This document shows, in pieces, positions 2,400-21,354 of a stretch of DNA of 21,354 nucleotides (position 1 is its first letter; each line of letters opens with the position of its first letter). This DNA is from a virus. The notes below the pieces were generated by a model. It was not told the origin of the DNA, ran no database searches, and was given only the letters and a program-made list of their open reading frames with translations. Both the position numbers and the translations under genes were made by a program. The stretch covers positions 1-21,354 of the IMG/VR virus record IMGVR_UViG_3300006921_000200, one strand, 5' to 3'.

Positions 2400-3420
2400 A
2401 AAAGAGAAATCAAGCTAATAACTAAATCCCTGGTTAACAAGGAAATAGTTATTAAAATGATTTAAAATATAAAACAAAAACTACGGGTACAATATCGTAA
2501 TTTGACAAGTATCTGTTCAATCTAAATTATAGTTCATCTGTTATCAGAATCATATACAGTGCAGAATAGTCCTTTGGCCCTTTGGGTATCGATAAGACCT
2601 TGAGTTTTCGTTTCCAACATTTAGTTTCATTTGCGTAATGGGGTTAGCAAATTACTTACATTCTACGCCACGTGAAGGCAGTTGTTTGTCTGTAGAACTT
2701 GCATAAGCTGAGATTATACTTATGACACACATCTTTAGTTGTTTAGTTCCCGTTAAGGTTTACAACATATCCACTATCGTCTCCGATAGTAATGTGCAGT
2801 GACGGTTAGTTAGACTAACCACTTCTAATGTTACCACTTACTCACGATCTACTCAAACGTAATATAAAGCCGCTAAACTCTATACCAGTCTTTCAATCGC
2901 AAACAGAATCATCTTGAGGAATCATCCACTCTCCTTCTAGAGGAGATTTAGTCACCTTTCAGTGATAACAGGCCAACACTTGTTCTTTTGATTAATATTA
3001 TGGAATTAACCATTTTTTTGCATCTACTGTCCAGGATGTGGTTGGTCCACAATTGCTTTATCACCTTTTGAGTGACAAAATACAATACATCCCAGGTATA
3101 ACTTTCCATCGTTATGATATTTCGTGACAATCCTATTCCCTAGGACCACCAGTTATACTGATTTATACATCTAATTAGATTGGAGTCTAACTCGATATTA
3201 AATCTACAGTTTATCTTATTGTTGTTACCAACTCACATCCCATCAAGAAGGATGCACACATACACTCAGACGATAGTCCTCTGTTGCCGTGTGATATACT
3301 GCTTGTTTGGATTGACTCTCCGAAGAGAGCAACAATTACTGTTCATGCGTTGCAGTAATCATCTTTAGGCATATTGCTATGCTTATCAGGCCAAACCCTA
3401 TTTTAAAGTTTGTAATGAAG
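2400..3420 (-). ncRNA. Candidate large structured non-coding RNA, about 1 kb
   Basis: No protein gene is credible here. The frames present are short, lie in all six phases, and the longest (60 codons, 2948-3130 minus) runs through hairpins. Perfect or near-perfect stems are dense. Read on the minus strand, several are closed by stable tetraloops: GCATA-GCAA-TATGC (3382-3369), CTCTC-TTCG-GAGAG (3329-3316), TCACT-GAAA-GGTGA (2965-2952) and ACTATCG-GAGA-CGATAGT (2790-2773). Other stems are ATTACTG/CAGTAAT (3359-3335), TCCTA/TAGGA (3145-3131), TGTGG/CCACA (3051-3037), TCTCCT/AGGAGA (2946-2930), GGTTAGT/ACTAACC (2820-2804) and CATAAG/CTTATG (2724-2702). GNRA and C(UUCG)G loops appear only on this strand; their complements are not special, which fixes the direction. 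Upstream, a terminator (3471-3498) isolates it from the SSB-like gene. Size, phage context and a nearby tmRNA recall GOLLD and ROOL RNAs, but no class is assigned. Exact ends are unknown. Confidence 0.6.
2416..2454 (-). terminator. Hairpin with distal T-tract ending the 2400-3420 transcript
   Basis: TAATAACTA (2416-2424) and TAGTTATTA (2446-2454) form a perfect 9-bp stem, with a short inner CCT/AGG pairing. On the minus strand the stem is followed, about 14 nt later, by a run of eight T (2405-2398). It separates the structured region to its right from the gene starting at 2367. The T-tract is not directly adjacent, so termination strength is uncertain. It could simply be the 3' domain of the RNA. 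Confidence 0.45.
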
Positions 3421-3470: not shown

Positions 3471-3498
3471 GAAAGACAGGACTGGATCACTGTCTTTC
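3471..3498 (-). terminator. Intrinsic terminator after the SSB-like gene
   Basis: GAAAGACAG (3471-3479) and CTGTCTTTC (3490-3498) form a perfect 9-bp stem with a 10-nt loop, 27 nt beyond the stop codon of the leftward gene. On the minus strand the stem is followed by a pyrimidine-rich run (TTCCTTTTCTC). It marks the end of the leftward operon that includes the gene at 3525-4058. Confidence 0.7.
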
Positions 3499-3524: not shown

Positions 3525-4058
3525 TTAAAATGGTGCGTTAGGTGCCGCTTCAGTTGTAGCTGCTTCTGATGTTTCAGTCTCAGTCTCAAAGTCACTAGGC
3601 TCTTCAAATGCTGCTTCACCTGCAATAACACCATCAGATGTCATTAGTTGGTGTCCCTGTGATTTGAATACAGAAGTGATAGTCTCTCCCTTAAGAACAA
3701 CAGAAGTATAAGACATAACTTCACGACCGTCAACTGTATAAGGAACAACAGATTTAGTAACGATGTCGCCAGGTATATTCTTACCAACGAATTGTTTGAT
3801 TAAAGAAGGATTACCAGCTTTCCATACTGGATTGTCTTCAGAGTCAGTAGTTTGAGCTATAACTCTAGTTCTTTCAGCCCCAAATGGGTTAGAAGGATCT
3901 CTAAATACTGCGATGTAATATTTTCTACCGTCAGATGTTAGATTTAGTTTACCGTTAACGCCATCTTTGTCGTCAACTAATTGTGCATCAGCTTTTGCTG
4001 ATAATCTTACAGTAACTAGTTGTAAGGCTGCGTCAGGATTGATTGTGTTCATGTCCAT
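3525..4058 (-). CDS. SSB-like single-stranded DNA-binding protein (OB-fold type), candidate
   Basis: This 177-residue protein has a beta-rich core (residues about 10-130) followed by a disordered acidic tail rich in E, T and A that ends in APF. An acidic tail ending in Pro-Phe is the hallmark of bacterial and phage SSBs, whose tip recruits replication and repair partners. The core has YYIAVFRD (47-54) and ERTRVIAQ (61-68). The same pattern, YALFRFR then QRTKAVFA, appears in the gene at 5476-5841, so the two are probably paralogues. The assignment rests on tail plus composition, not on a profile match. Start: ATG at 4058; a second ATG two codons later is possible. It follows the interrupted gene after 2 nt and is ended by the hairpin at 3471-3498. 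Confidence 0.6.
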   Translation of the reverse strand: MDMNTINPDAALQLVTVRLSAKADAQLVDDKDGVNGKLNLTSDGRKYYIAVFRDPSNPFGAERTRVIAQTTDSEDNPVWKAGNPSLIKQFVGKNIPGDIVTKSVVPYTVDGREVMSYTSVVLKGETITSVFKSQGHQLMTSDGVIAGEAAFEEPSDFETETETSEAATTEAAPNAPF

Positions 4059-4060
4059 AA

Positions 4061-4342
4061 TTAATAATTTAAATTGGTTTTGTTATACATTAAGTTATAC
4101 TCTAAAAAGAGAGACAGTTTGAGTTCAAGTGCGACTACATCTAAAACAAGTATTAGAAAAGATGCCATCCACTTATGTCTAGGAACAGTTTGGCTTTTAT
4201 TAAATGGTGTGCTCCATTCCTTTTGATATGGTTATACTTTTACATATTCATACTTATTTGTCTTACAACATAGACCACGAAGACGGTAATCAATACCATT
4301 GAAGGAATATGTTGGACCAAGATACTGTCTAGATGAAATCAT
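4061..4342 (-). pseudogene. Small gene interrupted by an in-frame TAA, or a 36-residue protein
   Basis: The ATG at 4342 overlaps the stop of the preceding gene as ATGA, as with the other coupled pairs in this chain. The frame encodes MISSRQYLGPTYSFNGIDYR..., a 36-residue product, up to TAA at 4234-4232. The same frame then continues for 56 further codons (PYQKEWSTPFNKSQTVPRHK..., then a hydrophobic beta-like end) to a second TAA at 4063-4061, two bases before the next gene. The composition on both sides looks like one small phage protein of about 93 residues. Either a nonsense mutation has broken it, the stop is read through, or only the first 36 codons count. TAA is a true stop elsewhere (for example after the APF tail of the SSB-like gene), so a general code change is unlikely. 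Confidence 0.4.
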
Positions 4343-4781: not shown

Positions 4782-4939
4782 TGGTCTCTTCGTATCCTAT
4801 GTTTCAAGGAGATTGTTTTAATACTCAGTTAGACCATGTGTTTGGTAGGTTATCACATCAGATATTATTTTCGTTGTCATCTAAGTCAATAGTGAGTAGG
4901 AATATAATTCTATCCGTTTAGTGATAGGTGGTACATCTA

Positions 4940-5194
4940 TTAGAACTTCTCGTCTACTGGTTGAGTTTGTGCATCAACAGTTTCAAGAATGTTACAGATA
5001 GATTTTGTTTCTTCTGTCATTGCTCGTCTGTCATCATATGACATTTCATCGTGTTTAATAGTATCTTCTAGAGCACTTACTAAAGTCCTAGCTAGTCTAC
5101 TAAGTTTATAACACTTACTATCCAATGACTTGATAGATTTATCTCTCTTTTTAAGTGCAGAGATCGCACTATTAATATCTAATTCCATTATCAA
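4940..5194 (-). CDS. Small helical phage protein, unknown function
   Basis: This 84-residue, charged, helical protein has two likely helices: residues 8-45 (ISALKKRDKSIKSLDSKCYK... with heptad-like hydrophobics) and 50-75. A short disordered tail ends in DEKF. No family is recognised. The frame opens with ATG at 5194, with a second ATG two codons in (MIM) that could be the true start. No host-type promoter is visible directly upstream. It lies between two intergenic gaps and so may have its own leader. Confidence 0.7.
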   Translation of the reverse strand: MIMELDINSAISALKKRDKSIKSLDSKCYKLSRLARTLVSALEDTIKHDEMSYDDRRAMTEETKSICNILETVDAQTQPVDEKF

Positions 5195-5475
5195 AAGGTT
5201 TTAGGTTTTTCCATTAGAGCTATATTATAGTAATGGAGTCTATAATGTCGTTGTCCCATTGAGGGTAGATATGAGGGTTGAGAACATTAGGTAACGCTCT
5301 CGAACACTCAAACGACATAAAAGAGTGACAAACTCTCTTAGGCCAAGATTTAGTGAGGTTGTTTGATACGTGAGCCAGGTAAAACAGTAGCAATATCTGT
5401 AGTTATTGGGCCAAAGTAGTTGTTGAAGCCTGGGTGGAGCAGAACAACAAGGCGTTAGCCTTGCTGTCCATTGTC
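5195..5475 (-). other. 281-nt gap with possible broken coding remnant
   Basis: There is no intact gene of useful length. On the minus strand one frame gives a protein-like stretch (HPGFNNYFGPITTDIATVLP...) ending at TAA 5352-5350. A second frame, offset by one base, continues with SWPKRVCHSFMSFECSRALP... down to TAG at 5222-5220. Together they could be one small gene broken by a frameshift, but neither half has a clear start. A hairpin-terminator sits at 5448-5463, and AGAGT/ACTCT arms lie near 5321-5336. I cannot decide between a decayed gene and an untranslated leader for the 84-residue protein. Confidence 0.3.
5448..5463 (-). terminator. Hairpin terminator after the 5476-5841 gene
   Basis: CAAGGC (5448-5453) and GCCTTG (5458-5463) form a 6-bp GC-rich stem with a 4-nt loop, 12 nt past the stop of the leftward gene. 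On the minus strand the stem is followed by TTGTTCT. It is a plausible intrinsic terminator, perhaps a partial one, because further leftward genes lie downstream. Confidence 0.5.
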
Positions 5476-5841: not shown

Positions 5842-6022
5842 ATCAATTGGTTTTAGAGTACGCTACCCAGAGTTGGAGATTCATATCTCTCTTTCAGGTA
5901 CGGGGGTAGTTTCCGTCCAGAATTTAGCGGGGGAGTTTGCTTAGTAGTGGGTTAAACGCTCGATTACTGACACATTTTTTTAAATTAGATGATCTATATT
6001 TTTTTTATAATATATTTTTTTA

Positions 6023-6030
6023 TATCTTTG
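6023..6030 (+). promoter_or_regulatory. Bacteroidota-type -7 element TATCTTTG (upstream)
   Basis: TATCTTTG matches the Bacteroidota consensus TAnnTTTG. It is identical to the copies at 7197 and 12977. The -33 TTG is not evident in the preceding A/T tract. It would start a transcript near 6040, about 330 nt before the first gene, giving a long leader or a separate small RNA. Confidence 0.45.
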
Positions 6031-6039
6031 CCCCATCAC

Positions 6040-6290
6040 TTAATATAGGAACTACTATATATAAGGACACATCGCCAAGAGAATAAAGGATATGAAGCGG
6101 TGCCACTACGTCTTACGTATGCACTTCTTTAAGACTGCATACACCACCCACTTTAATTAGCGGGGACGGACTGAGGTAGAAACTCAGTCTAGAATGGAGC
6201 TTTAGGCTGCTCCCCCTCTCCTGAGGTTTTCTGGGAATTCAACAACACACTTGCGGGAGGGATAAGGTGTTGTGTCTCCACTACTAGCTA
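6040..6290 (+). ncRNA. Structured leader or small RNA candidate
   Basis: Downstream of the 6023 promoter, several stems can form: GTCTTA/TAAGAC (6110-6115 with 6130-6135) interleaved with GTATGC/GCATAC (6117-6122 with 6137-6142), GACTGAG/CTCAGTC (around 6169-6190), GGAGC/GCTCC (around 6196-6213), and ACAACAC/GTGTTGT (around 6242-6275). A second promoter (6337) re-initiates for the gene at 6370, so this RNA need not be part of that message. The strand is inferred from the promoter only. Confidence 0.35.
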
Positions 6291-6313
6291 CTCAATAATA
6301 CTTAAGTATATAC

Positions 6314-6344
6314 TTGCATAGTAAATATAAATATTATATATTTG
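6314..6344 (+). promoter_or_regulatory. Promoter for the rightward operon at 6370
   Basis: TTG at 6314-6316 and TATATTTG at 6337-6344 are separated by 20 nt, as in Bacteroidota sigma-70-type promoters (-33 TTG, -7 TAnnTTTG). The G of the -7 box lies 26 nt before the ATG at 6370, the same distance as at the 7197 promoter and one more than at 12977. Confidence 0.65.
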
Positions 6345-6369
6345 TAAAGTATAACTATATAAATATATA

Positions 6370-8325: not shown

Positions 8326-8616
8326 ATGAAATTAGACGAAACAGTAAAAAACATAAAATTAATAGGCGATAATATATTAGTTTTTGTAGAGCCTCCTAAA
8401 AAAGAGACTCAGAGTGGTATTATAGTATCTGAAGAGGTAGCTAGAGAACATTCAGAGCTTTATGGGGAAGTAGTTGCAGTAGGACCTAGTGTAAAAGATT
8501 TTTCAGAGGGAGATGTAGTTTTATTACCTCCACATGGAAGTACTCCAACTGTATATAAGAATATTGTATATCACGTATTTAAAGAATATAGTCTATTTGC
8601 TAAAATAGAGGAATAA
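8326..8616 (+). CDS. groES: GroES-type co-chaperonin (Cpn10)
   Basis: This is a 96-residue protein, the usual Cpn10 length. DNILVFVEPPKKETQSGIIV (15-34) corresponds to the first strand plus the mobile loop, whose hydrophobic tip GIIV binds GroEL. GEVVAVGP (47-54) and EGDVVLLPPHG (61-71) are the conserved barrel strands, and LFAKIEE ends the fold. It caps the host chaperonin chamber during folding. Phage-encoded examples such as T4 gp31 are needed to fold the major capsid protein. No GroEL is present in the window, so it presumably works with the host chaperonin. Its position just before the packaging and portal genes suits capsid folding. The stop overlaps the next start. Confidence 0.93.
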   Translation: MKLDETVKNIKLIGDNILVFVEPPKKETQSGIIVSEEVAREHSELYGEVVAVGPSVKDFSEGDVVLLPPHGSTPTVYKNIVYHVFKEYSLFAKIEE

Positions 8617-8831: not shown

Positions 8832-9366
8832 TTTACAAAACAGGAAAGTAGTTATCGCTCCTGCCGCTCTTTTAATTCCAGAATTTAAAGAGATATGGGA
8901 GCGTGACGAAACTGAATATAAAGAAATAGCATTAGCTGAACTTAGTTATGTGTATTTCGTATCAGACTATAAATCTATTTATAGATCTGGAATCTCAGAA
9001 GGTGAGTTGCATGCTGTTGTTGCTAAGGACTTTTTAAAGGATGAGGCTTACGAGCCTTGTCCGCAAGTCCGATCTGCAATGACTAAGTATATGATGCTAC
9101 AAGAAACTCCATCTATGCGATTACTAACAGCATCTTTAAGTACAATAGACAAGTTAACTGACTATTTACAACATGTTGACTTATCAGAACGAGATGCTAG
9201 AGATAAACCCGTATATAAACCGAGTGATATAACTAATTCTTTGAAATCAATTGGAGGAATTGTGGAATCCTTACATAAAGTAAGGGCTCAAGTAGAGAAG
9301 GAACAGCAATCAGCAGCGTCTTTAAGAGGCCAGCGTACGAAAGGTAACAGAGAAGATCCAACCTAA
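8818..9366 (+). CDS. Phage structural-region protein, unknown function
   Basis: This 182-residue protein starts at GTG 8818, inside the end of the previous gene. It has an N-terminal mixed domain (MNLFDLQNRKVVIAPAALLI, EIWERDETEYKEIALAELSY), a central helical part, and a basic, disordered tail (SLRGQRTKGNREDPT). Proteins with a LFDLQN start and the AELSYVYFVSDY motif occur, as I recall, just upstream of terminase and portal genes in Bacteroidota phages, so a packaging or virion role is likely. A small terminase subunit is possible given the position before the large subunit and the helical build, but no helix-turn-helix is clear. It ends 1 nt before the next gene. Confidence 0.7.
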   Translation: MNLFDLQNRKVVIAPAALLIPEFKEIWERDETEYKEIALAELSYVYFVSDYKSIYRSGISEGELHAVVAKDFLKDEAYEPCPQVRSAMTKYMMLQETPSMRLLTASLSTIDKLTDYLQHVDLSERDARDKPVYKPSDITNSLKSIGGIVESLHKVRAQVEKEQQSAASLRGQRTKGNREDPT

Positions 9367-10477: not shown

Positions 10478-10611
10478 TGGCCAGAGGAGTACAAAATTCG
10501 TATACAAAGCCATCAAGACGAAAAAGACCAGGAGTACATTCTAAAACAAAAACGTCTAATTCTAAAAACTCAAAGTATTACTTAAAAAAATACCGTGGAC
10601 AAGGAAAATAG
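10477..10611 (+). CDS. 44-residue basic protein (KYRGQGK end)
   Basis: ATG at 10477 overlaps the previous TAA, and the frame runs 44 codons to TAG at 10609-10611: MARGVQNSYTKPSRRKRPGV..., then a lysine-serine-asparagine linker and YYLKKYRGQGK at the end. It is strongly basic, with no hydrophobic core, and so is likely disordered and possibly nucleic-acid- or capsid-binding. Tiny basic proteins with KTSNSKNSKYY...KYRGQGK-like sequence just upstream of terminase occur, as I recall, in Bacteroidota phages. The last 17 nt overlap the start of the next gene (GTG 10595). It is short but well supported by overlaps on both sides. Confidence 0.7.
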   Translation: MARGVQNSYTKPSRRKRPGVHSKTKTSNSKNSKYYLKKYRGQGK

Positions 10612-10921
10612 TGAACTTAAAAAATTAAGAGAAAATGAGAAGGCATTGCATCTGGCTATGTATAATGCTTTTTTACTGATAACAGGACGTAAATCTTACG
10701 AGGACTTTGAAAAAGAAGAAGGATTTTGGTTGCCTGAGGGTTTTCATGAGCTTGAATCTATCGATAATATAATGAATTACTTTATTGAATTAGAGGATTA
10801 TGAAAAGTGTGCAGAATTAAGGGATTTAAAAGCACAGATAGAACGAAAGGAAGCAAAGAACAAACTCAGTCACTTATTTCAAACTACTAAATGGAAGATA
10901 GACACAGACGATCAGATATAA
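10595..10921 (+). CDS. Small protein with UVR-like motif
   Basis: This 108-residue helical protein starts at GTG 10595 within the previous gene. Its C-terminal part, MNYFIELEDYEKCAELRDLK (64-83 by count), resembles the UVR motif (a short helical hairpin, EDYEKAAxLRD) found in UvrB, UvrC and other proteins as an interaction module. Related small proteins are common in phages and no enzymatic role is implied. The gene overlaps the terminase start by 31 nt (10891-10921), which implies coupled translation and perhaps a partner function in packaging. The motif match is clear by eye; the role is open. Confidence 0.7.
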   Translation: MDKENSELKKLRENEKALHLAMYNAFLLITGRKSYEDFEKEEGFWLPEGFHELESIDNIMNYFIELEDYEKCAELRDLKAQIERKEAKNKLSHLFQTTKWKIDTDDQI

Positions 10922-12960
10922 TCATTGCACAACCGTGGGAAGACTTAGAAAAATATAAAGATAATCCTGTAAGACATACAACTCAGGACTATTTAAAATT
11001 TATAAACACTGAAATTTTTAGTGAAACTTCTAAATACTTTTTAAAACACGGGGTATATACTCACGCTCCTATGGGAACATCTGAGTATATAGAGTTCTGG
11101 GATAGAGAAGAAGAGAGATGTAAAAATGGATATACTGTAGGAGGAGTCCGAATTACTGGAGAGCACTATGCTTATCTAAATTATGGTCGTATCTTAGCGA
11201 CTATTGACGATGGTAAACGTCAAAGAAAAATAGACACATTCCCTAAGTTTCTAGACATGGACTATTATTGGTACCATGAATTAGAACAAGCCGAACAGAA
11301 TGGCCAAGGAATGATCGTTGTAAAAGCCAGACGTAAGGGATTCTCATATAAGAATGCCTTTGGAATGGCTTGGAAATACAACTGGTTTCCTTATTCTATT
11401 TCTATATTAGCAGCCTTTGAAAAAACTTTCTGGGCTAATACTATGGAAATGACCAAAAATATGGTCAACTTTATTAATGAAAATACAGATTGGGCAAAAG
11501 GATTTTTACATGATAGACAAGATGCATTCAAAGCAGGGTATGTAGAGAAAGATAAAATCTCAGGGATTAATATCGAGAAAGGATTTAAATCTGAAGTACT
11601 AGCCTTATCATTTAAAGACTCCCCTCAAAAATCTGTAGGACGTACTGCTGAGCGAATGCTTTTTGAGGAGGCAGGAGATTGGCCAGGATTATTACAAGCG
11701 TACCAACGTTCTTATCCTCTATTCAAAGATGGTAATATTATGATTGGTATCCCTATTATATATGGAACAGGGGGTAATAATAAAAATGGTACAAACGCTG
11801 ATTTTGAGGAAATGTTTTATAATCCTTCTGCTTATGGATTACGATCATATGAAAATATATATGATGAAAATGCTGTAGGAGAAGCGGGGTGGTTTGTAGA
11901 TGATGCATGGTACCGAGAGCCTTTTGTAGATAAACAAGGTAATGCTCTTAGAGAAAAAGCAGTCGAAGATATAGATCTAGAAAGAGAAGAAAAGAAAAAA
12001 GCAGATCCTAAGGCTTATAATATGATGGTAACACAGCACCCTCATAATCCTAAGGAAGCATTCTTAAGAAACGAAGGTTCTATATTTCCAACAGTGGAGT
12101 TATATAATGTACTAGCAAAGTTAAAGTCAGACGATAGATATAAAAAACTAGGAACTGCTGGAGAGTTATATGAGGAAGAAGGAGAGGTTAGATTTAAACC
12201 TGATTTAGCGAAGAAGCTATATCCTATTATAAAACATCCTCATAGTATAAAGGATCCGCAAGAAGGATGTGTTATGGTATACCAACATCCCCCAGAAGAT
12301 ATTCCTTTTGGGTTATATAAAATAGGATTAGACCCTGTCGCATTTGATAAGTCAGGAAGTAAATCTTTAAACGCTTGTTACGTATATAAATCATACCAAA
12401 AATTTGATTATGGTTACGATGAAATTGTAGCAGAGTACGTAGGAAGACCAGATAATATTGAAATTTATAATAGAAATTTAGAGCTATTATCTGAGTATTA
12501 TGGAGGAGCACAAATAATGTTTGAGAATGACAGGGGAGAAGTCTTGTCATATTTTAAAAGAAGAGGTAAGCTTGGTTTATTAGCTGATCAACCTGATAAT
12601 GTTATCTCAAAAATAATCAAAGCTTCTACAGTCTCCAGAATAAAAGGTTGTCATATGAATGACAAAATGAAAGATGCAGGAGAAAAATTTATACTGAGAT
12701 GGTTATGGACGGAACGAGGAGAGAATGAAGATGGGAGTAAGGTATATAATATGGATTTAATTCCTTCGGCAGGATTATTAGAAGAATTAATACAATATCA
12801 TAGACTAGGAAACTTCGATAGAGTAATGGCATTTATGCAATTGATGTTCTCTGTAGAAGAACGATATGACTCCGAAATCCACGAGCAACCAGCAAATAAT
12901 CACTCTGCAGAGTATTTAGTCACTAATATAACTAAAATGTTTGGTAAAAAACGTAGGTAA
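10891..12960 (+). CDS. terL: Terminase large subunit (DNA-packaging ATPase-nuclease)
   Basis: This 689-residue protein powers genome translocation into the procapsid and cuts the concatemer. The N-terminal ATPase has VVKARRKGFSYK (143-154), an unorthodox Walker A of the R/K-rich phage type, followed by RMLFEEAGDW (255-264) as Walker B with the catalytic Glu. A long linker leads to an RNase H-like nuclease domain with candidate acidic ligands in KIGLDPVAFD (477-486), MFENDRGE (543-550) and a further acidic region near MKDAGEKF (593-600). GEHYAYLNYGRI (90-101) near the N-terminus is a motif I associate with terminases of crAss-like and related Bacteroidota phages. The length is at the upper end for TerL, as in that group. 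The first codons overlap the upstream gene. Confidence 0.92.
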   Translation: MEDRHRRSDIIIAQPWEDLEKYKDNPVRHTTQDYLKFINTEIFSETSKYFLKHGVYTHAPMGTSEYIEFWDREEERCKNGYTVGGVRITGEHYAYLNYGRILATIDDGKRQRKIDTFPKFLDMDYYWYHELEQAEQNGQGMIVVKARRKGFSYKNAFGMAWKYNWFPYSISILAAFEKTFWANTMEMTKNMVNFINENTDWAKGFLHDRQDAFKAGYVEKDKISGINIEKGFKSEVLALSFKDSPQKSVGRTAERMLFEEAGDWPGLLQAYQRSYPLFKDGNIMIGIPIIYGTGGNNKNGTNADFEEMFYNPSAYGLRSYENIYDENAVGEAGWFVDDAWYREPFVDKQGNALREKAVEDIDLEREEKKKADPKAYNMMVTQHPHNPKEAFLRNEGSIFPTVELYNVLAKLKSDDRYKKLGTAGELYEEEGEVRFKPDLAKKLYPIIKHPHSIKDPQEGCVMVYQHPPEDIPFGLYKIGLDPVAFDKSGSKSLNACYVYKSYQKFDYGYDEIVAEYVGRPDNIEIYNRNLELLSEYYGGAQIMFENDRGEVLSYFKRRGKLGLLADQPDNVISKIIKASTVSRIKGCHMNDKMKDAGEKFILRWLWTERGENEDGSKVYNMDLIPSAGLLEELIQYHRLGNFDRVMAFMQLMFSVEERYDSEIHEQPANNHSAEYLVTNITKMFGKKRR

Positions 12961-13008: not shown

Positions 13009-15516
13009 ATGTCATCATATACATTTCCACAGCAAAGGCTAAGCTATAGTGCCAAAAAGAAGAATGAGTTCCAATGGGGCAAGGATGTACTAGATACTCT
13101 TGAGTCATACGGGAAAGAGCAGGCTGCTTCAGCGGGCTTTCAAAGTACTGAAGCACGTAAGAGAATAAATTATGATCTATTTAATGGTATATTAAACGTT
13201 TCAGACTTCGAGTATGTATGTAAACCTTACGGTATAGATGGTGTAGGAGAACTTCCTGCAGAGATTAGACATTATGATATTATATCTCCTAAACTACGTG
13301 TGTTATTTGGTGAGGAAATAAAAAGACCATTTAATTACAAAGTAGTAGCTACAAATCCAGAGGCAATTACAGAACGAGAAAAAGCACAAGCGGACATGTT
13401 GCGTGATTATATGCAACAGAAAGTGCAAGCGCAGATACAACAAGCAATGCAGGAAGCTGGGATTAATCCTGAGGGAGGCCCTCAAGATTCCCAGGATCCA
13501 GAAGTGATGCAGCAGCAGCAAATGCAAATGCAGCAGATACAACAACAGATGACCCCTCCTCAGATCGAAGAGTATATGAAAAGAGATTATCAAGATCATA
13601 GAGAGATAATGGGTAATCAAATCTTAGGGTATCTGAGAAGAGAACAAAAAATAAGAGAAAAATTTGTTAAAGGGTGGAAGCATGGTCTTATAACATCGGA
13701 AGAAGTTTATTATGTAGGTATTATTAATGGAGAACCTGTAGTTAATACAGTTAATCCATTATTCTTTACACATGATAAAGATCCTGATTTGGATTATATT
13801 GAAGATGGACAATGGGCCAAATACTCTATGAGAATGACTGCAGGATCTGTAGTAGATACTTTTGGAGAATACCTTACCCAGGCACAAATTAAAGACCTAT
13901 ACTCCGATTCAGCCGCTTCAGGCACGTCCCACCCGCTAGGTTCAAAAGAATTTTCCTATGATTCGGACCAGCTATTCTCAGAGTCTTTCCATACAGATTG
14001 GGACCCCGCGAGTACTAGAGACTCCAGCGCACGTGGTTACATTAATGTAATTCACTGTGAATGGAGATCTCTGAAAAAAATAGGATTCTTAACATTTGTG
14101 GATGATGATTTCTCTGAGCAAGAGACTATAGTCGATGAGACATATACGTTAAATAAGCCAGGAGGAGATCTTAAAATCAAATGGGAATGGATTCCTGAAA
14201 TATGGGAAGGTACTAAAATAGGTAGTGATGTATATTGTAATATACGTCCAAAACCAAATCAATCTAAAGATATAGACAATTTATATTCATGTAAGTTAGG
14301 ATATGTAGGATCAACTTACAATAATTTAAATGCTTATCCAGTATCTTTAATGGATAGAATGAAACCTTACCAATATCTATACAACATTATGATGTATAGG
14401 TTAGAATTAGATTTAGCATCGGATAAAGGTAAAAAATTCCTAGCCGATATTAATCAGATACCATCTTCAATGGGTATTGACATGGAAAAGTGGTTATATT
14501 ATTTTGACGCTTTAGGTATAGCATTTATTAATCCTAAAGAAGAAGGAAAGAGAGGAGAACAAAACCACTTCAACCAATGGCAATCTATTGATTTATCAAT
14601 GGCGCAGACTATCCAACAGAAGATTGGATTACTAGAATATTTAGAAGCGCAATGTAGCGAGGTATCTGGGATAACAAAACAACGAGAAGGCCAGGTTGGA
14701 CCAAACGAACTGGTAGGAAATACTGAACAAGCAGTTGTTCAATCTTCAGCAATCACTGAAGAATTATTTTACACACACAATTCTATTAAAGGTAGGGTCC
14801 TAGAGGCGTTGTTAGATACAGCTAAGGTTGCTTGGGGTGATGGTAAGACCAAAAAAATCCAGTATATCTTAGATGACATGACTACCCATTTACTTACGGT
14901 AGATCCAGTACAATTACCAGAATCTTCTTTTGGAATCTTTGTTTCAGATTCTTCTAAAGATAGAGAGCTTTATTTAACTATGAAACAATTAGCGCACGCA
15001 GCATTACAAAATCAAACTGCTGAGTTGTCCGATGTAATTAAAATGTTATCTACTGACTCTACTGCTGAAATCAAAACTCTTCTTGAGAAATCTGAAGAAG
15101 CTAGAAAAGCAAGAGAAGATCAAATGCAACAATCTCAACAACAAGGTCAGCAAGCGCAGATTGAAGCTCAAAAAGAAATCGAAGCTCAAAAATCTCAACT
15201 TAAGAAATACGAGATTGATGAAGATAATGATACAAAAATTAAAGTTGCTGAAATTAATGCCTTTAGAGGAAAAGAAGATCAAGATATAAACGGTAATCAA
15301 ATTCCTGATCAATTAGAAATCGAAAAACTTAAGATACAAGTTCAGAATACTGATAAGAAAATGGATCTTGAGAATCGTAAGCTAGATGTAAAAGAAAAGG
15401 AATTGGTATTAAAAGATCAACAGGCTGATAGAAAAATGCGAGAAGATCGTAAAAATAAAGATGCCGATAGAAAATCTAAAGAAAAACAAGCGGCTAAGAA
15501 AAAGAGTGATAAATAA
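13009..15516 (+). CDS. Portal protein
   Basis: This 835-residue protein forms the dodecameric ring at the capsid vertex through which DNA passes. The N-terminal half has the portal pattern of crAss-like and P22-like phages: INYDLFNGILN (53-63), ISPKLRVLFGEEIKRPF (91-107), a Gln/Met-rich insert of about 60 residues (roughly 135-195), and KGWKHGLITSEEVYYVGIINGEP (220-242). The later clip/stem region includes SGITKQREGQVGPNELVGNTEQAV (near 560-583), typical of portals. The last 140 residues are a highly charged coiled coil with Gln/Lys/Glu repeats and a poly-basic end (KKKSDK), probably the barrel or tail-facing extension. A DINGNQIPDQLE stretch inside it looks like a calcium loop. The gene has its own promoter at 12977, and the next gene starts 9 nt after its stop. 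Confidence 0.88.
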   Translation: MSSYTFPQQRLSYSAKKKNEFQWGKDVLDTLESYGKEQAASAGFQSTEARKRINYDLFNGILNVSDFEYVCKPYGIDGVGELPAEIRHYDIISPKLRVLFGEEIKRPFNYKVVATNPEAITEREKAQADMLRDYMQQKVQAQIQQAMQEAGINPEGGPQDSQDPEVMQQQQMQMQQIQQQMTPPQIEEYMKRDYQDHREIMGNQILGYLRREQKIREKFVKGWKHGLITSEEVYYVGIINGEPVVNTVNPLFFTHDKDPDLDYIEDGQWAKYSMRMTAGSVVDTFGEYLTQAQIKDLYSDSAASGTSHPLGSKEFSYDSDQLFSESFHTDWDPASTRDSSARGYINVIHCEWRSLKKIGFLTFVDDDFSEQETIVDETYTLNKPGGDLKIKWEWIPEIWEGTKIGSDVYCNIRPKPNQSKDIDNLYSCKLGYVGSTYNNLNAYPVSLMDRMKPYQYLYNIMMYRLELDLASDKGKKFLADINQIPSSMGIDMEKWLYYFDALGIAFINPKEEGKRGEQNHFNQWQSIDLSMAQTIQQKIGLLEYLEAQCSEVSGITKQREGQVGPNELVGNTEQAVVQSSAITEELFYTHNSIKGRVLEALLDTAKVAWGDGKTKKIQYILDDMTTHLLTVDPVQLPESSFGIFVSDSSKDRELYLTMKQLAHAALQNQTAELSDVIKMLSTDSTAEIKTLLEKSEEARKAREDQMQQSQQQGQQAQIEAQKEIEAQKSQLKKYEIDEDNDTKIKVAEINAFRGKEDQDINGNQIPDQLEIEKLKIQVQNTDKKMDLENRKLDVKEKELVLKDQQADRKMREDRKNKDADRKSKEKQAAKKKSDK

Positions 15517-15524
15517 TTCTGCGT

Positions 15525-18500
15525 ATGGGACATCACACGAAAGAACACCAAGTCGCTAATTATTTCGGTATAAAGCTTAGGGATAAAAACAAATTCCCTA
15601 GAAGCGTCAAGTCAGTATTAAAAGATCGTTTAAGTGAGGACGAATATTCTAATCTTTTAAAATATTATACTGACGAAGCAGGATCTCCCAATGTTATGTT
15701 TTATGACCAGGCTAGTTTTATGAATAGCCCTTCAGGATGGACAGGATGTAATACATTTGCCTCAGGAAGACCAGGGTGGTATAATCCTTATGATAATACT
15801 ATCTATCTCCATAGTGATGCGAAAGGCGATGACAAGGAGATTTTTAGAATGGTCTTTGAGGAATTAGGGCACGCCAGACAAAAGAGAGATATACAAAAGG
15901 TACAAGAGACAAGTCCATCAATGCAGTTTATAGATAATTATCTACTCGCAGGAGATGGGCCTTCTCATATACAGACTGCTGGTGTAATAGGAGGTAATTT
16001 AAAAAATGCTCATAAGGGATTAGGAAAGCCTACACTAACTGACTGGAATGTGATTGATTATTGGACCAATGTGTTCAGTTCTGAGCACCAGGGTCACTTG
16101 TATAATACTGATGATAATAATTACGAAGAGACTGTACATACAGGAGACATAAAACAAGATCTTATTACTGATGTTTTCGGAAGAGATGGAGTTAAAAATT
16201 ATTTAAGTATAGGAGATAATAGTACAGAGCATAGACACCAAGGTGCATTTAATCAGACAGCACTTAATTATTTTGAGGGTAATTACCAGAAAAAACGAGC
16301 CAAGAGAGAACAGCTTTATGGAGCTATATTTAATAAAGCAGGGGAGTTAATACACAAAGCTACAGAATTCGGAACAGACGGTCTAAAACAGCTAGCATCA
16401 GACGGACTAAACTTTATGGTTGAGTCGCCCGATATGATACGAGGCGGAATCTACAAAGGATTTCAAAAAGCAGGGGAGTTAATAAATGAAGTTAAAGACT
16501 GGGAACAAGGAGGACATATAAATGCAACTACCCCTAGTGCAAGACATAGAGGATTAGAAGGGGCCAACCCTGGTACCTCAGCTTCTCTTATTTATTCAGA
16601 TCACAGAGGACGTAAACTTGAAGGAAGACAGAGCTATCCAGTACGCGTATACGCAGACGGTGCTTATGTTGGGGTCTTAAAGCCAGGAGAAACTATGGAA
16701 AACTTTTCTGCACAACGCATAGATGAGGTACCTATGATGGAAGAAGGTACTAATGTGGTTGCTCCTCAAGAAGATCCTGTAGAATATGATTTGAAGGATG
16801 CTACAGTAACGGTAGATCGTTCTCAATACACAGCTATTCCTCAAACGCATTTTGATATGCCTGAAGGAGATTTCGATTTTAGTTATGACAAATGGACGGG
16901 GGAGTTGGATGATGAGGGTTGGCGTATATATGAAACGGTTAATACTACGGGAACACACGATCCTAATTGGTATACCTCAGATTTTGATCCTTACGAATAT
17001 TATAAACGAAATGCTGACGGAGAGTATGATGACGCAACTAAGCATCTTATAAAATCTTATCAGAAGAGCCCATATATGGGGAAAAATGAGTACGATGAGT
17101 CCTATATGACACATCCTCTTGCGTGGAATGAGGATAGATTAGAACTTGAAAATCAAGCTCGTCTTAATCAGGCTGATATAAATAAAATATATAATTTAGA
17201 TGGAACTCTAAAGCCTGAATATAACCAGCAGTTAGGACCACAAAGATATTTACGTCCTTTTGGACCTGATCCTAAAGATGCTCCAAACCAACGACCTCAA
17301 ACGAAAGGAAGATGGGCATCTGAGCATCAAGAGGGATTCGCTTCAGGCTGGGGAAAGGATGGTTTAGGAAGTCCTTCAGAATTAACTGATAAAGAGTTAA
17401 AGGACTTATATAAAGAATATAAAAACTCAAATGGGTTTGGTAAGATGAAGAAAAAAGAATTCATCGAGCGCTATAGGTCAGGAGATAAATTTTATCCAAA
17501 TATACCCTCAGTGGACCAGGAGCTTGCCAATATAAAAACTTTTTCAGATGCAGTAAATCCTATTAAACCTGAGCATAATGAATTACAAAAAGAATTTCTT
17601 ATAGGAGGAATAAATTCTGACCTATATAGAGAAAAATTAATTAAATCAGGATATGAGAATGTTGATGAAATAATAGCTCAAAGAGAGGAACATTTAGCGA
17701 ATAGTAATTTTGTATATGAAGATACTGCAGATCAATATACTGATGAATATGTGTATTACAAGGGAGGACCAGAGAGCTCTATGGCTAAAGACAGAGATGA
17801 TCCTGCATATCCTGTTCATACCAATAGAGTATTTAGGGTTCAAGATAAACTGAATGTCTTAGGAAATATATACGAATCAGAAGGGAGAACTTTAGATCTT
17901 AAGAAAGCTCTGAATATGCGTAATGATTATACCCCTTGGGGAGATGAGAGTGCCCCTACTGAGCATGGTTTTTATTCAGGAGATGAAGATGATGCTTTAT
18001 TTTGGGCTCAGCTGGGAAGAGGTTTTAACGTAGGACAGTATCTGGGTGATAAAATATTATTTGGAACAAGCGGATCAAGAGCGTATACAGGCAGCCACGG
18101 TGAGCGTGCTGGTGACGTGGTTTTATCTCCTAGGCAAGCACAGGGGCTTAATATTGATATGGGAGGAGATGGAAGTGTAGAGCAGCTTGAATCTAGTTTA
18201 GATGAAATTCTTTTTCACGAGAACGCACATATGGCGGGAGCTACAACGAATAGACCTGATGGATTAAATCAATACGATCAAGATCTGATAATTAAATATA
18301 TGACAGATAGTGGGATTGATGTATCAACTCTTAGTGATCACGATGCTTCTCCCGCTGAAAGAAAGGCAGACCTAGATGGATTAAGATGGAAGATGTTTAA
18401 TACTATAGGATATGATTATAGAACAACCAAGCTGACTCCTGCGATTTTACAACAATATAAAAAATACGTTGCAGAGAATCCTTCTCCTAGTTTAGTAAAT

Positions 18501-21354
18501 GACAGAAACTTTAAATTCTTTAATGATGAGAGTTTAATAAACTTTAATAATGATGTGGCGCATCACAAGATAAACAATCAGTCAGTTAATAACATAGGCG
18601 CAGAAGATCTACACTTGGTAGGAGCTCAACAAAGTAAATATGGAGGGCCTGCTAAATACCAAGGCGGATCAAACGTTCAAATACAAGAACCTAATTTAGA
18701 TATACAAGCTGATACTACAGGCACAAAAACCATAAATCCTCTAGAAAGCATTTTTTCAAAAGAAGAGTTAGACTATGTAGACTTTATACAAAATAGAAAG
18801 CCTTATCGCGATCATACTACTACAGGAGAAGATCCCGAATTATTCTATTTAGATTTATATAATACAGAACTTACTGCTGATGATCTTTTAGAATTTTATG
18901 TTTGGAAAGATACCCTAGCACAAAGAAGATCTTTATTAAATAATACAACTAAAGATGAGGAATTAAAGAGGCTTGATATGGATAAGGGAGCGTATGATAT
19001 TCAAGGATTTTGGAAGTCTGGGGATTATGAAAACACAGACTCTGATGGACATGGAGCCGATACATGGAAGAAACCAAATCACGTTACCTTCAGTAATGAG
19101 TCTAAGTATGCTAAAAACTATGAGCTGCCTGAAGGAGAAGACGATGATAGATCAGAATACGAGGGAGGCCTCTGGAATTCTGACGGAGGGTATGTACCTT
19201 CTCAACATAATATGTACGGGAACGAACGTTTACACAGGGAGTTCTCTGATCCAAATCGTCCTGAACATTTGTTTATGGGGAATGATTTAATTTATAATCA
19301 CCCTTTATTTCTAAAATCAGGCTTGATGCCTGCTGATAGTATACCTCAACTTAATTATCAGCAAGGTAATGAATTCCCTACAAAGTACCAAGACGGAACA
19401 AATGTTACAGCAGAAGAAGAACCTTTATTTATTCCAGAACCGAATACTCCAGAAATGGATGCGAAGTTTACAAATATGTATAGAGAGCAGGATGAACGTA
19501 CCCTAAATGATGTGACTTTTGATGGGAGTACAGAAGATGGTATGTTGGATTATTTAAAATTTACAGAGAATAGTGTTGCTGCAGGGTATAAGAAAAATAA
19601 AGACGGTGAGTTTAGATGGTATCCCCATAAAGATAGTAAGGGAATATTGACTATTGGATATGGTCATAATATTAACAAAGGAGAAGATTTTTCTAAAGGA
19701 TTAACTCAAACTGAGGTTGATGATTTATTGAAAGCAGATATGAAAGTACATACAGATCTTTTAGAACGAAATGTACCTGAGTGGGAAAATTTATCTACTC
19801 TACAACAAAATGCTTTATTAGATATTCAATATAATATCAGAGGAAATGTTTGGACAAAGTTTCCTTCATTTACAAAAGCTGTTGTAAATAAAGATTGGAA
19901 AAATGTAGTATTAGAAGGATCTAGAGAGGAATATAATGGTGATCCTAATCAAAGAAATACTGCGTTCTATAAGAGCCTTATAGAGCCAATGGTGGAAGAA
20001 TGGAGGCCTGAGATACGTAATCCAAAGGCTACTATAATTAGTCCTGAGCTTCTTGAGCAGAGTAGATATGTAGCAGAACAAGATAATACACGAGTTGGAA
20101 ATAATTCTTTTGGAGGATGGAGAGATGGATCTCGTGTAACAAAGTATCAAGACGCAAGTCAAGTAAGGAATGATGCGTTTGTGCCTGTTGATCAGGATCC
20201 TGTTGATATATCTGAAGGATTAGATAATACATATCTACAGACACAGCAGAAATATCCTAATTTTTCTGATCAAGAAATTTATAAGTATTATTTAGAGGGC
20301 ATAAATCCTTCAGACGGAATGATAAATAATATGATGCCAAATGTCTATGCTATGTCAGAAAACATTATAGAGCCTGTTCCTTTTTTCTCTACTACTTTTA
20401 GTACACAGATGGATACTCCAAATCTTTATAAAAACACTGGAGAACAATGTATTGCTTACGGTAAAGTAGTGGATGGGTGTTCAGGAGGATTACAATTAGG
20501 GATGGAATTTAATACAGACTTAACTAAAAGTGGAGTAAGAGATATTAATGGTTTAAAGGGAGATGCTTGGCAGATGCATAATAATGTTGTTGAATCAGGA
20601 GGACAATCCCTATTTAATTATTCTGATTATATGGATTATGAATATTTAAGAGAAAATCCAAATATTGCAACAGGAAGTTATTTATTCGATAGATATAATA
20701 ATGCTCGTAATCAGTTAGGAAATAATGCTAAGTTAGATGAAAGTACTTTACAGGTAGGAGACTTTGTAGATCTTTTTTATAATGGTTCTTCTTATCAGGG
20801 AGAGGCAGTTAGAGATGGATATGGTTCTAATATGAATTCTCATGTAGGTAAGATTACTGAGAAGAATGGAAAACTCTATGTTACTCATAATGTAAGTGGG
20901 ACGTGGCATTCAGATCCTTTAGAGAACTTATTAGAAAATCAAAGAATGCATAACGGCCATCAAGTAATGGTAGTTGGAGGGTATCGCCCTAAATACGAAA
21001 CAGGGTTAGTAAGTGGAGTATCTTTTAATCCTGATAATTATGATGGCATCGAGCTTAAGCATAAGGGAAGTATTCTTCAAGGCTGGAATGGTGCCGCATC
21101 GATGGACTTTCTTAATAACCTAGCTTTAACTATGCCTGATATTCAGAATGATTTTGGTTTAAGCGATGGAGATAGTTCTTTAATTGCTAAGCTGTCTTAT
21201 GGTACTTTTGGTATAGAATCTACTTTTGCTGAAGGAAATAGATACGATCATAAAAGTTGGGCCAGAGAACTCTTAAGAGGATGGAAGTCTCTAGATAATC
21301 AAACGCAGGCTCAGATGAATACGGCTTCTTATCCGCTTATGATGACAGCGGGGA
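15525..21354 (+). CDS. Giant modular virion protein with protease, lysozyme and peptidase domains (partial)
   Basis: The frame opens at ATG 15525, 9 nt after the portal stop, and stays open for at least 1943 codons to the window edge. Modules by residue are: EELGHARQ (112-119), a zincin-like helix lacking the first His of HExxH; HENAH (898-902) with ExxAD (945-949), an intact gluzincin-type zinc site; a phage structural-type motif DTWKKPNHxTFS (1179-1190); a GH24/T4-type lysozyme (about 1340-1487) with E1348, D1370, T1376 and TIGYGH; a CHAP/NlpC-like region (about 1630-1822) with C1642, GDAW and SHVGKI (H1773); and GIESTFAEG with E1898, transglycosylase-like. There is no signal peptide. KAGELI is duplicated (271, 315). 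Four short linkers of the KYQDGTNV type separate modules. It is probably a virion-carried wall-penetrating or tail-internal protein. Lysozyme and HENAH calls are firm by motif; the peptidase is moderate; the transglycosylase is weak. Confidence 0.85.
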   Translation, partial: MGHHTKEHQVANYFGIKLRDKNKFPRSVKSVLKDRLSEDEYSNLLKYYTDEAGSPNVMFYDQASFMNSPSGWTGCNTFASGRPGWYNPYDNTIYLHSDAKGDDKEIFRMVFEELGHARQKRDIQKVQETSPSMQFIDNYLLAGDGPSHIQTAGVIGGNLKNAHKGLGKPTLTDWNVIDYWTNVFSSEHQGHLYNTDDNNYEETVHTGDIKQDLITDVFGRDGVKNYLSIGDNSTEHRHQGAFNQTALNYFEGNYQKKRAKREQLYGAIFNKAGELIHKATEFGTDGLKQLASDGLNFMVESPDMIRGGIYKGFQKAGELINEVKDWEQGGHINATTPSARHRGLEGANPGTSASLIYSDHRGRKLEGRQSYPVRVYADGAYVGVLKPGETMENFSAQRIDEVPMMEEGTNVVAPQEDPVEYDLKDATVTVDRSQYTAIPQTHFDMPEGDFDFSYDKWTGELDDEGWRIYETVNTTGTHDPNWYTSDFDPYEYYKRNADGEYDDATKHLIKSYQKSPYMGKNEYDESYMTHPLAWNEDRLELENQARLNQADINKIYNLDGTLKPEYNQQLGPQRYLRPFGPDPKDAPNQRPQTKGRWASEHQEGFASGWGKDGLGSPSELTDKELKDLYKEYKNSNGFGKMKKKEFIERYRSGDKFYPNIPSVDQELANIKTFSDAVNPIKPEHNELQKEFLIGGINSDLYREKLIKSGYENVDEIIAQREEHLANSNFVYEDTADQYTDEYVYYKGGPESSMAKDRDDPAYPVHTNRVFRVQDKLNVLGNIYESEGRTLDLKKALNMRNDYTPWGDESAPTEHGFYSGDEDDALFWAQLGRGFNVGQYLGDKILFGTSGSRAYTGSHGERAGDVVLSPRQAQGLNIDMGGDGSVEQLESSLDEILFHENAHMAGATTNRPDGLNQYDQDLIIKYMTDSGIDVSTLSDHDASPAERKADLDGLRWKMFNTIGYDYRTTKLTPAILQQYKKYVAENPSPSLVNDRNFKFFNDESLINFNNDVAHHKINNQSVNNIGAEDLHLVGAQQSKYGGPAKYQGGSNVQIQEPNLDIQADTTGTKTINPLESIFSKEELDYVDFIQNRKPYRDHTTTGEDPELFYLDLYNTELTADDLLEFYVWKDTLAQRRSLLNNTTKDEELKRLDMDKGAYDIQGFWKSGDYENTDSDGHGADTWKKPNHVTFSNESKYAKNYELPEGEDDDRSEYEGGLWNSDGGYVPSQHNMYGNERLHREFSDPNRPEHLFMGNDLIYNHPLFLKSGLMPADSIPQLNYQQGNEFPTKYQDGTNVTAEEEPLFIPEPNTPEMDAKFTNMYREQDERTLNDVTFDGSTEDGMLDYLKFTENSVAAGYKKNKDGEFRWYPHKDSKGILTIGYGHNINKGEDFSKGLTQTEVDDLLKADMKVHTDLLERNVPEWENLSTLQQNALLDIQYNIRGNVWTKFPSFTKAVVNKDWKNVVLEGSREEYNGDPNQRNTAFYKSLIEPMVEEWRPEIRNPKATIISPELLEQSRYVAEQDNTRVGNNSFGGWRDGSRVTKYQDASQVRNDAFVPVDQDPVDISEGLDNTYLQTQQKYPNFSDQEIYKYYLEGINPSDGMINNMMPNVYAMSENIIEPVPFFSTTFSTQMDTPNLYKNTGEQCIAYGKVVDGCSGGLQLGMEFNTDLTKSGVRDINGLKGDAWQMHNNVVESGGQSLFNYSDYMDYEYLRENPNIATGSYLFDRYNNARNQLGNNAKLDESTLQVGDFVDLFYNGSSYQGEAVRDGYGSNMNSHVGKITEKNGKLYVTHNVSGTWHSDPLENLLENQRMHNGHQVMVVGGYRPKYETGLVSGVSFNPDNYDGIELKHKGSILQGWNGAASMDFLNNLALTMPDIQNDFGLSDGDSSLIAKLSYGTFGIESTFAEGNRYDHKSWARELLRGWKSLDNQTQAQMNTASYPLMMTAG
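16335..16484 (+). repeat. 18-bp direct repeat encoding KAGELI
   Basis: AAAGCAGGGGAGTTAATA occurs identically at 16335-16352 and 16467-16484, 132 bp (44 codons) apart and in frame. It suggests a small internal duplication in the giant gene, with surrounding codons diverged. Confidence 0.7.
19542..19985 (+). other. GH24 (T4-type) lysozyme domain inside the giant protein
   Basis: Residues about 1340-1487 carry FTENS (E1348 as catalytic acid), YPHKDSKGILTIGYGHN (D1370, T1376), LTQTEVDDLLKADM, a QQNALLDIQYNIRG segment equivalent to the lysozyme QQRALVxxxFNxG helix, and FYKSLIEP near the end. It cleaves peptidoglycan between MurNAc and GlcNAc. The catalytic residues align with E11, D20 and T26 of T4 lysozyme. 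Confidence 0.85.

Follow-up and report, generated by a model that had tools for sequence, protein, structure and literature searches.

The gene-free interval on the minus strand of the window (the whole stretch of 21,354 nucleotides of viral DNA analysed here) encodes a roughly 700-nt RNA of the GOLLD family. This RNA adds a new member to a known family and does not constitute a new class. Taking all data together, we are highly confident that such a minus-strand RNA, carried by a marine crAss-like phage, is the best overall explanation of the region. The interval, about 1.1 kb long and flanked by genes at 3525-4058 and 1963-2367 on the same strand, holds only two open reading frames of 60-62 aa, both with a TTG start, confirming the lack of a credible gene that had been noticed in an earlier sequence-only reading. 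The hairpins described there on either flank, one of them with a T-run, are both present in the sequence, and the tmRNA placed three genes away was found downstream. The coordinates of all features are collected in Table 1.

Table 1. Features of the GOLLD region in the window and of related elements in homologous loci (L numbers).
Feature	Position	Strand	Evidence
Terminator-like hairpin of the gene upstream of GOLLD	3471..3498	-	sequence
GOLLD 5' domain, outside the Rfam model	~3096..3400	-	covariation; conserved start GGGUUUGGCC at 3398
First 5'-domain hairpin, GCAA loop	3370..3381	-	GNRA loop in 11/11; stem covaries
5'-domain hairpin, C(UUCG)G loop	3316..3327	-	relatives keep the stem; loop there often GCAA
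GOLLD conserved 3' region, whole RF02032 model (1-416)	2705..3095	-	214 bits; covariation
Single-hairpin arm replacing two consensus hairpins	2865..2882	-	one hairpin in 11/11
Core hairpin with GAGA loop	2775..2788	-	core helix 9; pairing 100% across the 11 sequences
Second conserved non-coding element, not GOLLD	~2455..2690	-	identity in L073-L075; ~235 nt
Terminator-like hairpin and T-run	2416..2454	-	sequence; conserved in L073-L075
Phage tmRNA, tag AESHSSALPLQSVELAVAA	744..1158	-	ARAGORN; RF00023 64.1 bits
83-nt tmRNA-like element	L076 2311-2393 (-); L081 1006-1088 (+); L078 2183-2265 (-); L003 1188-1270 (+)		
CCCAA(A/C)GGGCCAAAGGACT block	L054 2355-2388 (-); L050 295-327 (-); L085 2457-2489 (+)		
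AAACCCCUNCUAU..GUGG motif	L043 742-778 (-); L004 10225-10254, 9204-9296 (-); L076, L077 after GOLLD		

The family identity was established by the Rfam search that the sequence-only reading had proposed, which returned a single GOLLD match in the window. This match covered the model end to end with an E value of 1.3e-59 and lay 64 bits above the gathering score of 150, while none of 14 control genomes contained a match to the same model. The accession previously given for GOLLD, RF01998, had to be corrected to RF02032, a model that describes only the conserved 3' region of the RNA. Of the two identities put forward earlier, a large ornate RNA or a new class, the former was thus borne out by the full-length match and by covariation and the latter was dropped. 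ROOL (RF03087) was rejected as an alternative identity, no Rfam match being returned in the window or in 38 related records by a search run without a positive control.

The minus strand was picked by the Rfam match and by the tetraloops. Perfect stems, 5 bp or longer and ending in a GNRA or C(UUCG)G loop, occurred three times on the minus strand and never on the plus strand, the restriction to one strand having been noticed before, and 1000 dinucleotide shuffles returned a mean of 0.045 such stems and a maximum of one. The 701-nt minus strand at 2705-3405 folded with z = -3.4; since the opposite strand was also low (z = -3.1), folding energy alone cannot pick the strand. The extent of the RNA is smaller than the 2400-3420 originally assigned to it, as GOLLD occupies only about 2705-3400 and the stretch 2455-2704 was no more stable than its own shuffles (z = -0.42).

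The terminase (10891-12960) and portal (13009-15516) proteins of the phage share about 38% identity, over 89-98% of the length, with their counterparts in Crassvirales of the family Suoliviridae such as cr60_1 and cr4_1, on which grounds we assign the phage to the crAss-like phages. Fpv1, which NCBI does not assign to Crassvirales, is also similar, and any exact rank is thus provisional. Homologues were gathered from IMG/VR as 64 loci recovered through the terminase and seven through a GOLLD DNA pattern. A GOLLD above the cut-off was found in 10 of 50 related phage records searched whole, a value that is not a frequency because many records are fragments. No GOLLD match was detected in three relatives of 85-95 kb (G023, G029 and G031), suggesting that the RNA is not universal among relatives, and RF02032 was absent from the five Suoliviridae genomes and the Fpv1 genome searched. 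When the whole region was compared by blastn with 50,697 phage records, the only match was one of 58 nt in a 634-kb phage whose own GOLLD scores 287 bits. The DNA pattern also matched L008, whose record contains no RF02032 match, and Pedobacter and Pseudomonas genomes (L086-L091), where RF02032 was found in none of the four genomes searched; all of these were taken as chance matches. Three stricter GOLLD DNA patterns had no match in IMG/VR.

Alignment of 11 sequences demonstrated a conserved secondary structure in both domains. The core comprises 72 predicted pairs, 48 with compensatory changes, and its covariation score was 0.578, compared with 0.265 in shuffles and at most 0.139 with slid partners. 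The 5' domain comprises 60 predicted pairs in 10 helices, 40 of the pairs with compensatory changes, and scored 0.635, compared with 0.269 in shuffles and at most 0.158 with slid partners. Paired fractions were 93.9% in the core and 95.1% in the 5' domain, percentages that lean towards the predicted structures because these came from the same alignments as were scored; several of the 11 sequences are, moreover, close relatives. Compensatory changes, which occur in most helices, are therefore stronger evidence than the percentage paired. The 5' domain and its common start were present in all 11 RNAs, and in the first hairpin of this domain the loop was GCAA, GUAA or GUGA with compensatory changes in all five stem pairs.

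These data also bear on the view that the interval is ordinary intergenic or decayed coding sequence whose stems arose by chance. The two short reading frames would be in keeping with it; however, the E value of the Rfam match, a number of capped hairpins never reached in the shuffles, compensatory changes in 88 of the 132 predicted pairs of the two domains and indels of varied length among the homologues all speak against it. No intact protein gene was found in the homologous interval, and the covariation had already refuted this reading, which we consider to have virtually no chance of being correct.

The sequence preceding GOLLD differs among the relatives. In the window and in L073-L075 a terminator-like hairpin, which in the three relatives is another hairpin at the same place, is followed by an AT-rich stretch and then by the GOLLD start. 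A Pistol ribozyme was detected near the GOLLD boundary in L079 and L082 (67.6 and 69.4 bits; gathering score 34.5). An 83-nt tRNA-like element abuts GOLLD in L078, and lies about 115 nt upstream of it in L076 and L081 and about 1.2 kb upstream in the L077 contig. At the GOLLD 5' boundary of L080 (record G033) neither device was found. A 50-nt replacement occupies there the place of the tRNA-like element of L078, and G033 carries a Pistol ribozyme of about 49 bits at 89034-89095(+), away from the GOLLD boundary.

The 83-nt element matched the tmRNA model end to end, with 51.8 bits in L076 and L081. Its acceptor stem has 7 bp, the third of them a G-U pair; a T arm is present, and a long hairpin, closed by UUA, takes the place of the mRNA-like part, so that no tag is encoded. 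The long stem covaries, reading GUCUG/CAGAC in L076 and GAAUG/CAUUC in L078, and an exact pattern for the element matched four IMG/VR contigs only. In the window, L010 and L057 a full tmRNA occurs downstream of GOLLD instead of the tRNA-like element, in the window at a distance of about 1.5 kb.

Pistol cuts at a conserved G-U that immediately precedes the 3' strand of P2. The 5' end so predicted for L079 falls in column 24 of alignment A2, and the nucleotide following the discriminator base of the tRNA-like element of L078 falls in column 23, thus two unrelated devices predict nearly the same 5' end. GOLLD helix 1 starts at column 30; since the device places the predicted end 6-7 nt before this first helix, we infer that the GOLLD 5' end is precisely set in relatives. 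Self-cleavage by Pistol is established (PMC4604425), and precise ends would fit a requirement that monomers be freed from a longer transcript before they assemble. The generality of 5'-end setting is weakened by L080 and by the loci in which the device lies off the boundary, by about 40 nt in L082 and by at least about 115 nt in L076, L081 and L077.

The solved GOLLD of env-38 is a 14-mer that forms a symmetric, hollow, RNA-only cage (PMC12286853). Its half-shells are joined by the self-kissing loops L21a and L21b and by one A-minor contact, B10 (PMC12286853). The Rfam consensus has two hairpins in the half-shell-joining arm, at about 233-246 and 249-263, and by our own numbering env-38 nucleotides 656-657 would map to the first of them. 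A single hairpin was found instead of this two-hairpin arm in all 11 crAss-like GOLLDs; the two-hairpin arm is a structural detail of env-38 and of the consensus and not a condition for Rfam membership. The remaining hairpin has a loop with GC in the window group, with GAUC in L082 and with GGCC in L076, L077, L078, L080 and L081. In every lineage the centre of the loop is thus self-complementary, which is what retention of one self-kissing contact would lead one to expect.

Because one consensus arm hairpin is missing throughout, the same 14-mer cage may not form, and the RNA could make a different particle, for example an open 7-mer half-shell. That L21a and L21b join the env-38 half-shells lends weight to this alternative, since one of the two hairpins of the joining arm is absent from all 11 RNAs; nevertheless, the remaining loop has kept its self-complementary centre in each lineage, as if one contact were retained, and B10 also joins the halves in env-38. 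We consider a different particle rather unlikely. A cage closed through fewer arm contacts enters a broader proposal, possible but doubtful, in which GOLLD is a movable cassette in marine crAss-like phages, with a variant one-kissing-arm cage and with interchangeable 5'-end devices, i.e. direct start, Pistol ribozyme or tag-less tmRNA-like element. Assembly of the cage would, in this proposal, require monomers with a defined end, and this would be why the 5' end is exact. Between L079 and L073, identity at the DNA level is 94% for the GOLLD core but only 78% for the terminase; between the window and L073 the corresponding values are 87% and 88%. L079 and L073 share an ORF of 38 to 39 codons after GOLLD and differ in their 5' devices. 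These comparisons fit an exchange of GOLLD by recombination.

Downstream of GOLLD the window contains a second conserved non-coding element, 82-91% identical in L073-L075 with 1-nt indels, by which a coding function was rejected; no Rfam match was returned up to E = 1, and a known RNA was rejected as well. The hairpin that follows, of which a terminator scan reported the inner stem (2427-2443), is likely the 3' end of the transcript, and the element is probably co-transcribed with GOLLD up to this point. The conserved small ORF directly after GOLLD in L073, L074, L075 and L079 is absent from the window; its product has a hydrophobic C-terminal half, e.g. MNKVKVIRRLRWELTQCKRTILFHRLVICILIILVFIY, and a type I toxin was considered. 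A block of 31-34 nt, CCCAA(A/C)GGGCCAAAGGACT, is common to the second element and to long non-coding stretches of other loci.

With the loss of the ORF that separates GOLLD and the element in relatives, the two might function in the window phage as a single, longer RNA of about 950 nt. The element directly follows the GOLLD 3' end in the window, with a 38-codon ORF in between in L073-L075, and no minus-strand terminator was found between the two except for a hairpin within the GOLLD core. However, the element is without unusual stability, the GOLLD of L079 has no such element downstream and the Rfam match already ends at the 3' end of the GOLLD family, so that a single longer RNA appears quite improbable and we retain a GOLLD of about 700 nt.

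Other non-coding stretches and genes were observed in passing. Ahead of the rightward operon, at 6066-6112(+), lies a motif of 47-51 nt, GAYAC-(6-bp stem)-CARGARAA..AUGA-(stem)-CNACUACGUC, whose stem shows compensatory changes across 20 distinct sequences from related phages; no Rfam match was found at this motif, which is likely a new cis-regulatory RNA motif. A conserved non-coding stretch at L003 1956-2400(+) is common to L003, L002/L081 and L004/L076/L045, and a 62-nt piece of it, GGATAGAATTATATTCC...AAAATAATATCTGA, occurs in the window at 4858-4917(-). The motif AAACCCCUNCUAU..GUGG recurs in several non-coding stretches per genome, and L043 and L004 share a longer block beginning CAGACCGTTTTTCC. 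Further gene-free stretches of the window are conserved in relatives (4059-4338, 5189-5475, 5842-6369, 8832-9078 and 10478-10657), that at 5842-6369 belonging to a cluster of 63 non-coding stretches from 30 loci. The window also encodes a phage GroES-like co-chaperonin (PF00166) at 8326-8616(+). An ORF at 15525-21353(+) is 1943 aa long or longer, and a phage lysozyme domain lies in it around residues 1363-1461.

As to how the RNA might work, GOLLD probably starts at a promoter within the AT-rich sequence that follows the upstream terminator; this promoter was not located, sigma-70-type sites being no commoner than in shuffles. The RNA would run from about 3400 to 2705, with a precise 5' end and with transcription continuing through the second element to the terminator at 2416-2454. 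By analogy with env-38, GOLLD copies may assemble into a symmetric RNA-only cage and may be made late in infection, as GOLLD expression has been reported to rise during lysis (PMC12286853). The authors of the cryo-EM study suggested phage tRNA-type RNA or ribosomal particles as cargo (PMC12286853); these are the likeliest candidates here too, although our confidence in such a cargo is low.

GOLLD is one of the few natural RNA-only cages known, and 11 GOLLDs from one phage lineage, with differing 5' devices and all with one contact hairpin missing, make it testable whether 5'-end processing controls assembly and which contacts the cage needs. We found no literature link of GOLLD to crAss-like phages, Pistol or a tag-less tmRNA in the literature searched, which excludes most subscription journals and thus provides weak evidence of novelty.

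In comparison with known systems, the RNA resembles the env-38 GOLLD in its full-length 3'-region match, its separate and more variable 5' domain, its phage setting near a tRNA-type gene (the tmRNA) and the short AU-rich linker after the first hairpin domain. It differs from env-38 in being carried by a crAss-like phage, in having one arm hairpin and not two, and in that relatives bear, at the 5' end or close to it, a Pistol ribozyme or a tmRNA-like element that lacks a tag. ROOL is also a large phage RNA forming a cage, with a sequence and fold different from those of GOLLD. The theta ribozymes of gut phages are likewise small and self-cleaving and have been put forward as a means of defining the end of a non-coding RNA (PMC10879173). 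However, they are HDV-like and their proposed role is the trimming of tRNA 3' trailers (PMC10879173), whereas here it is Pistol that precedes GOLLD, in two relatives and not in the window.
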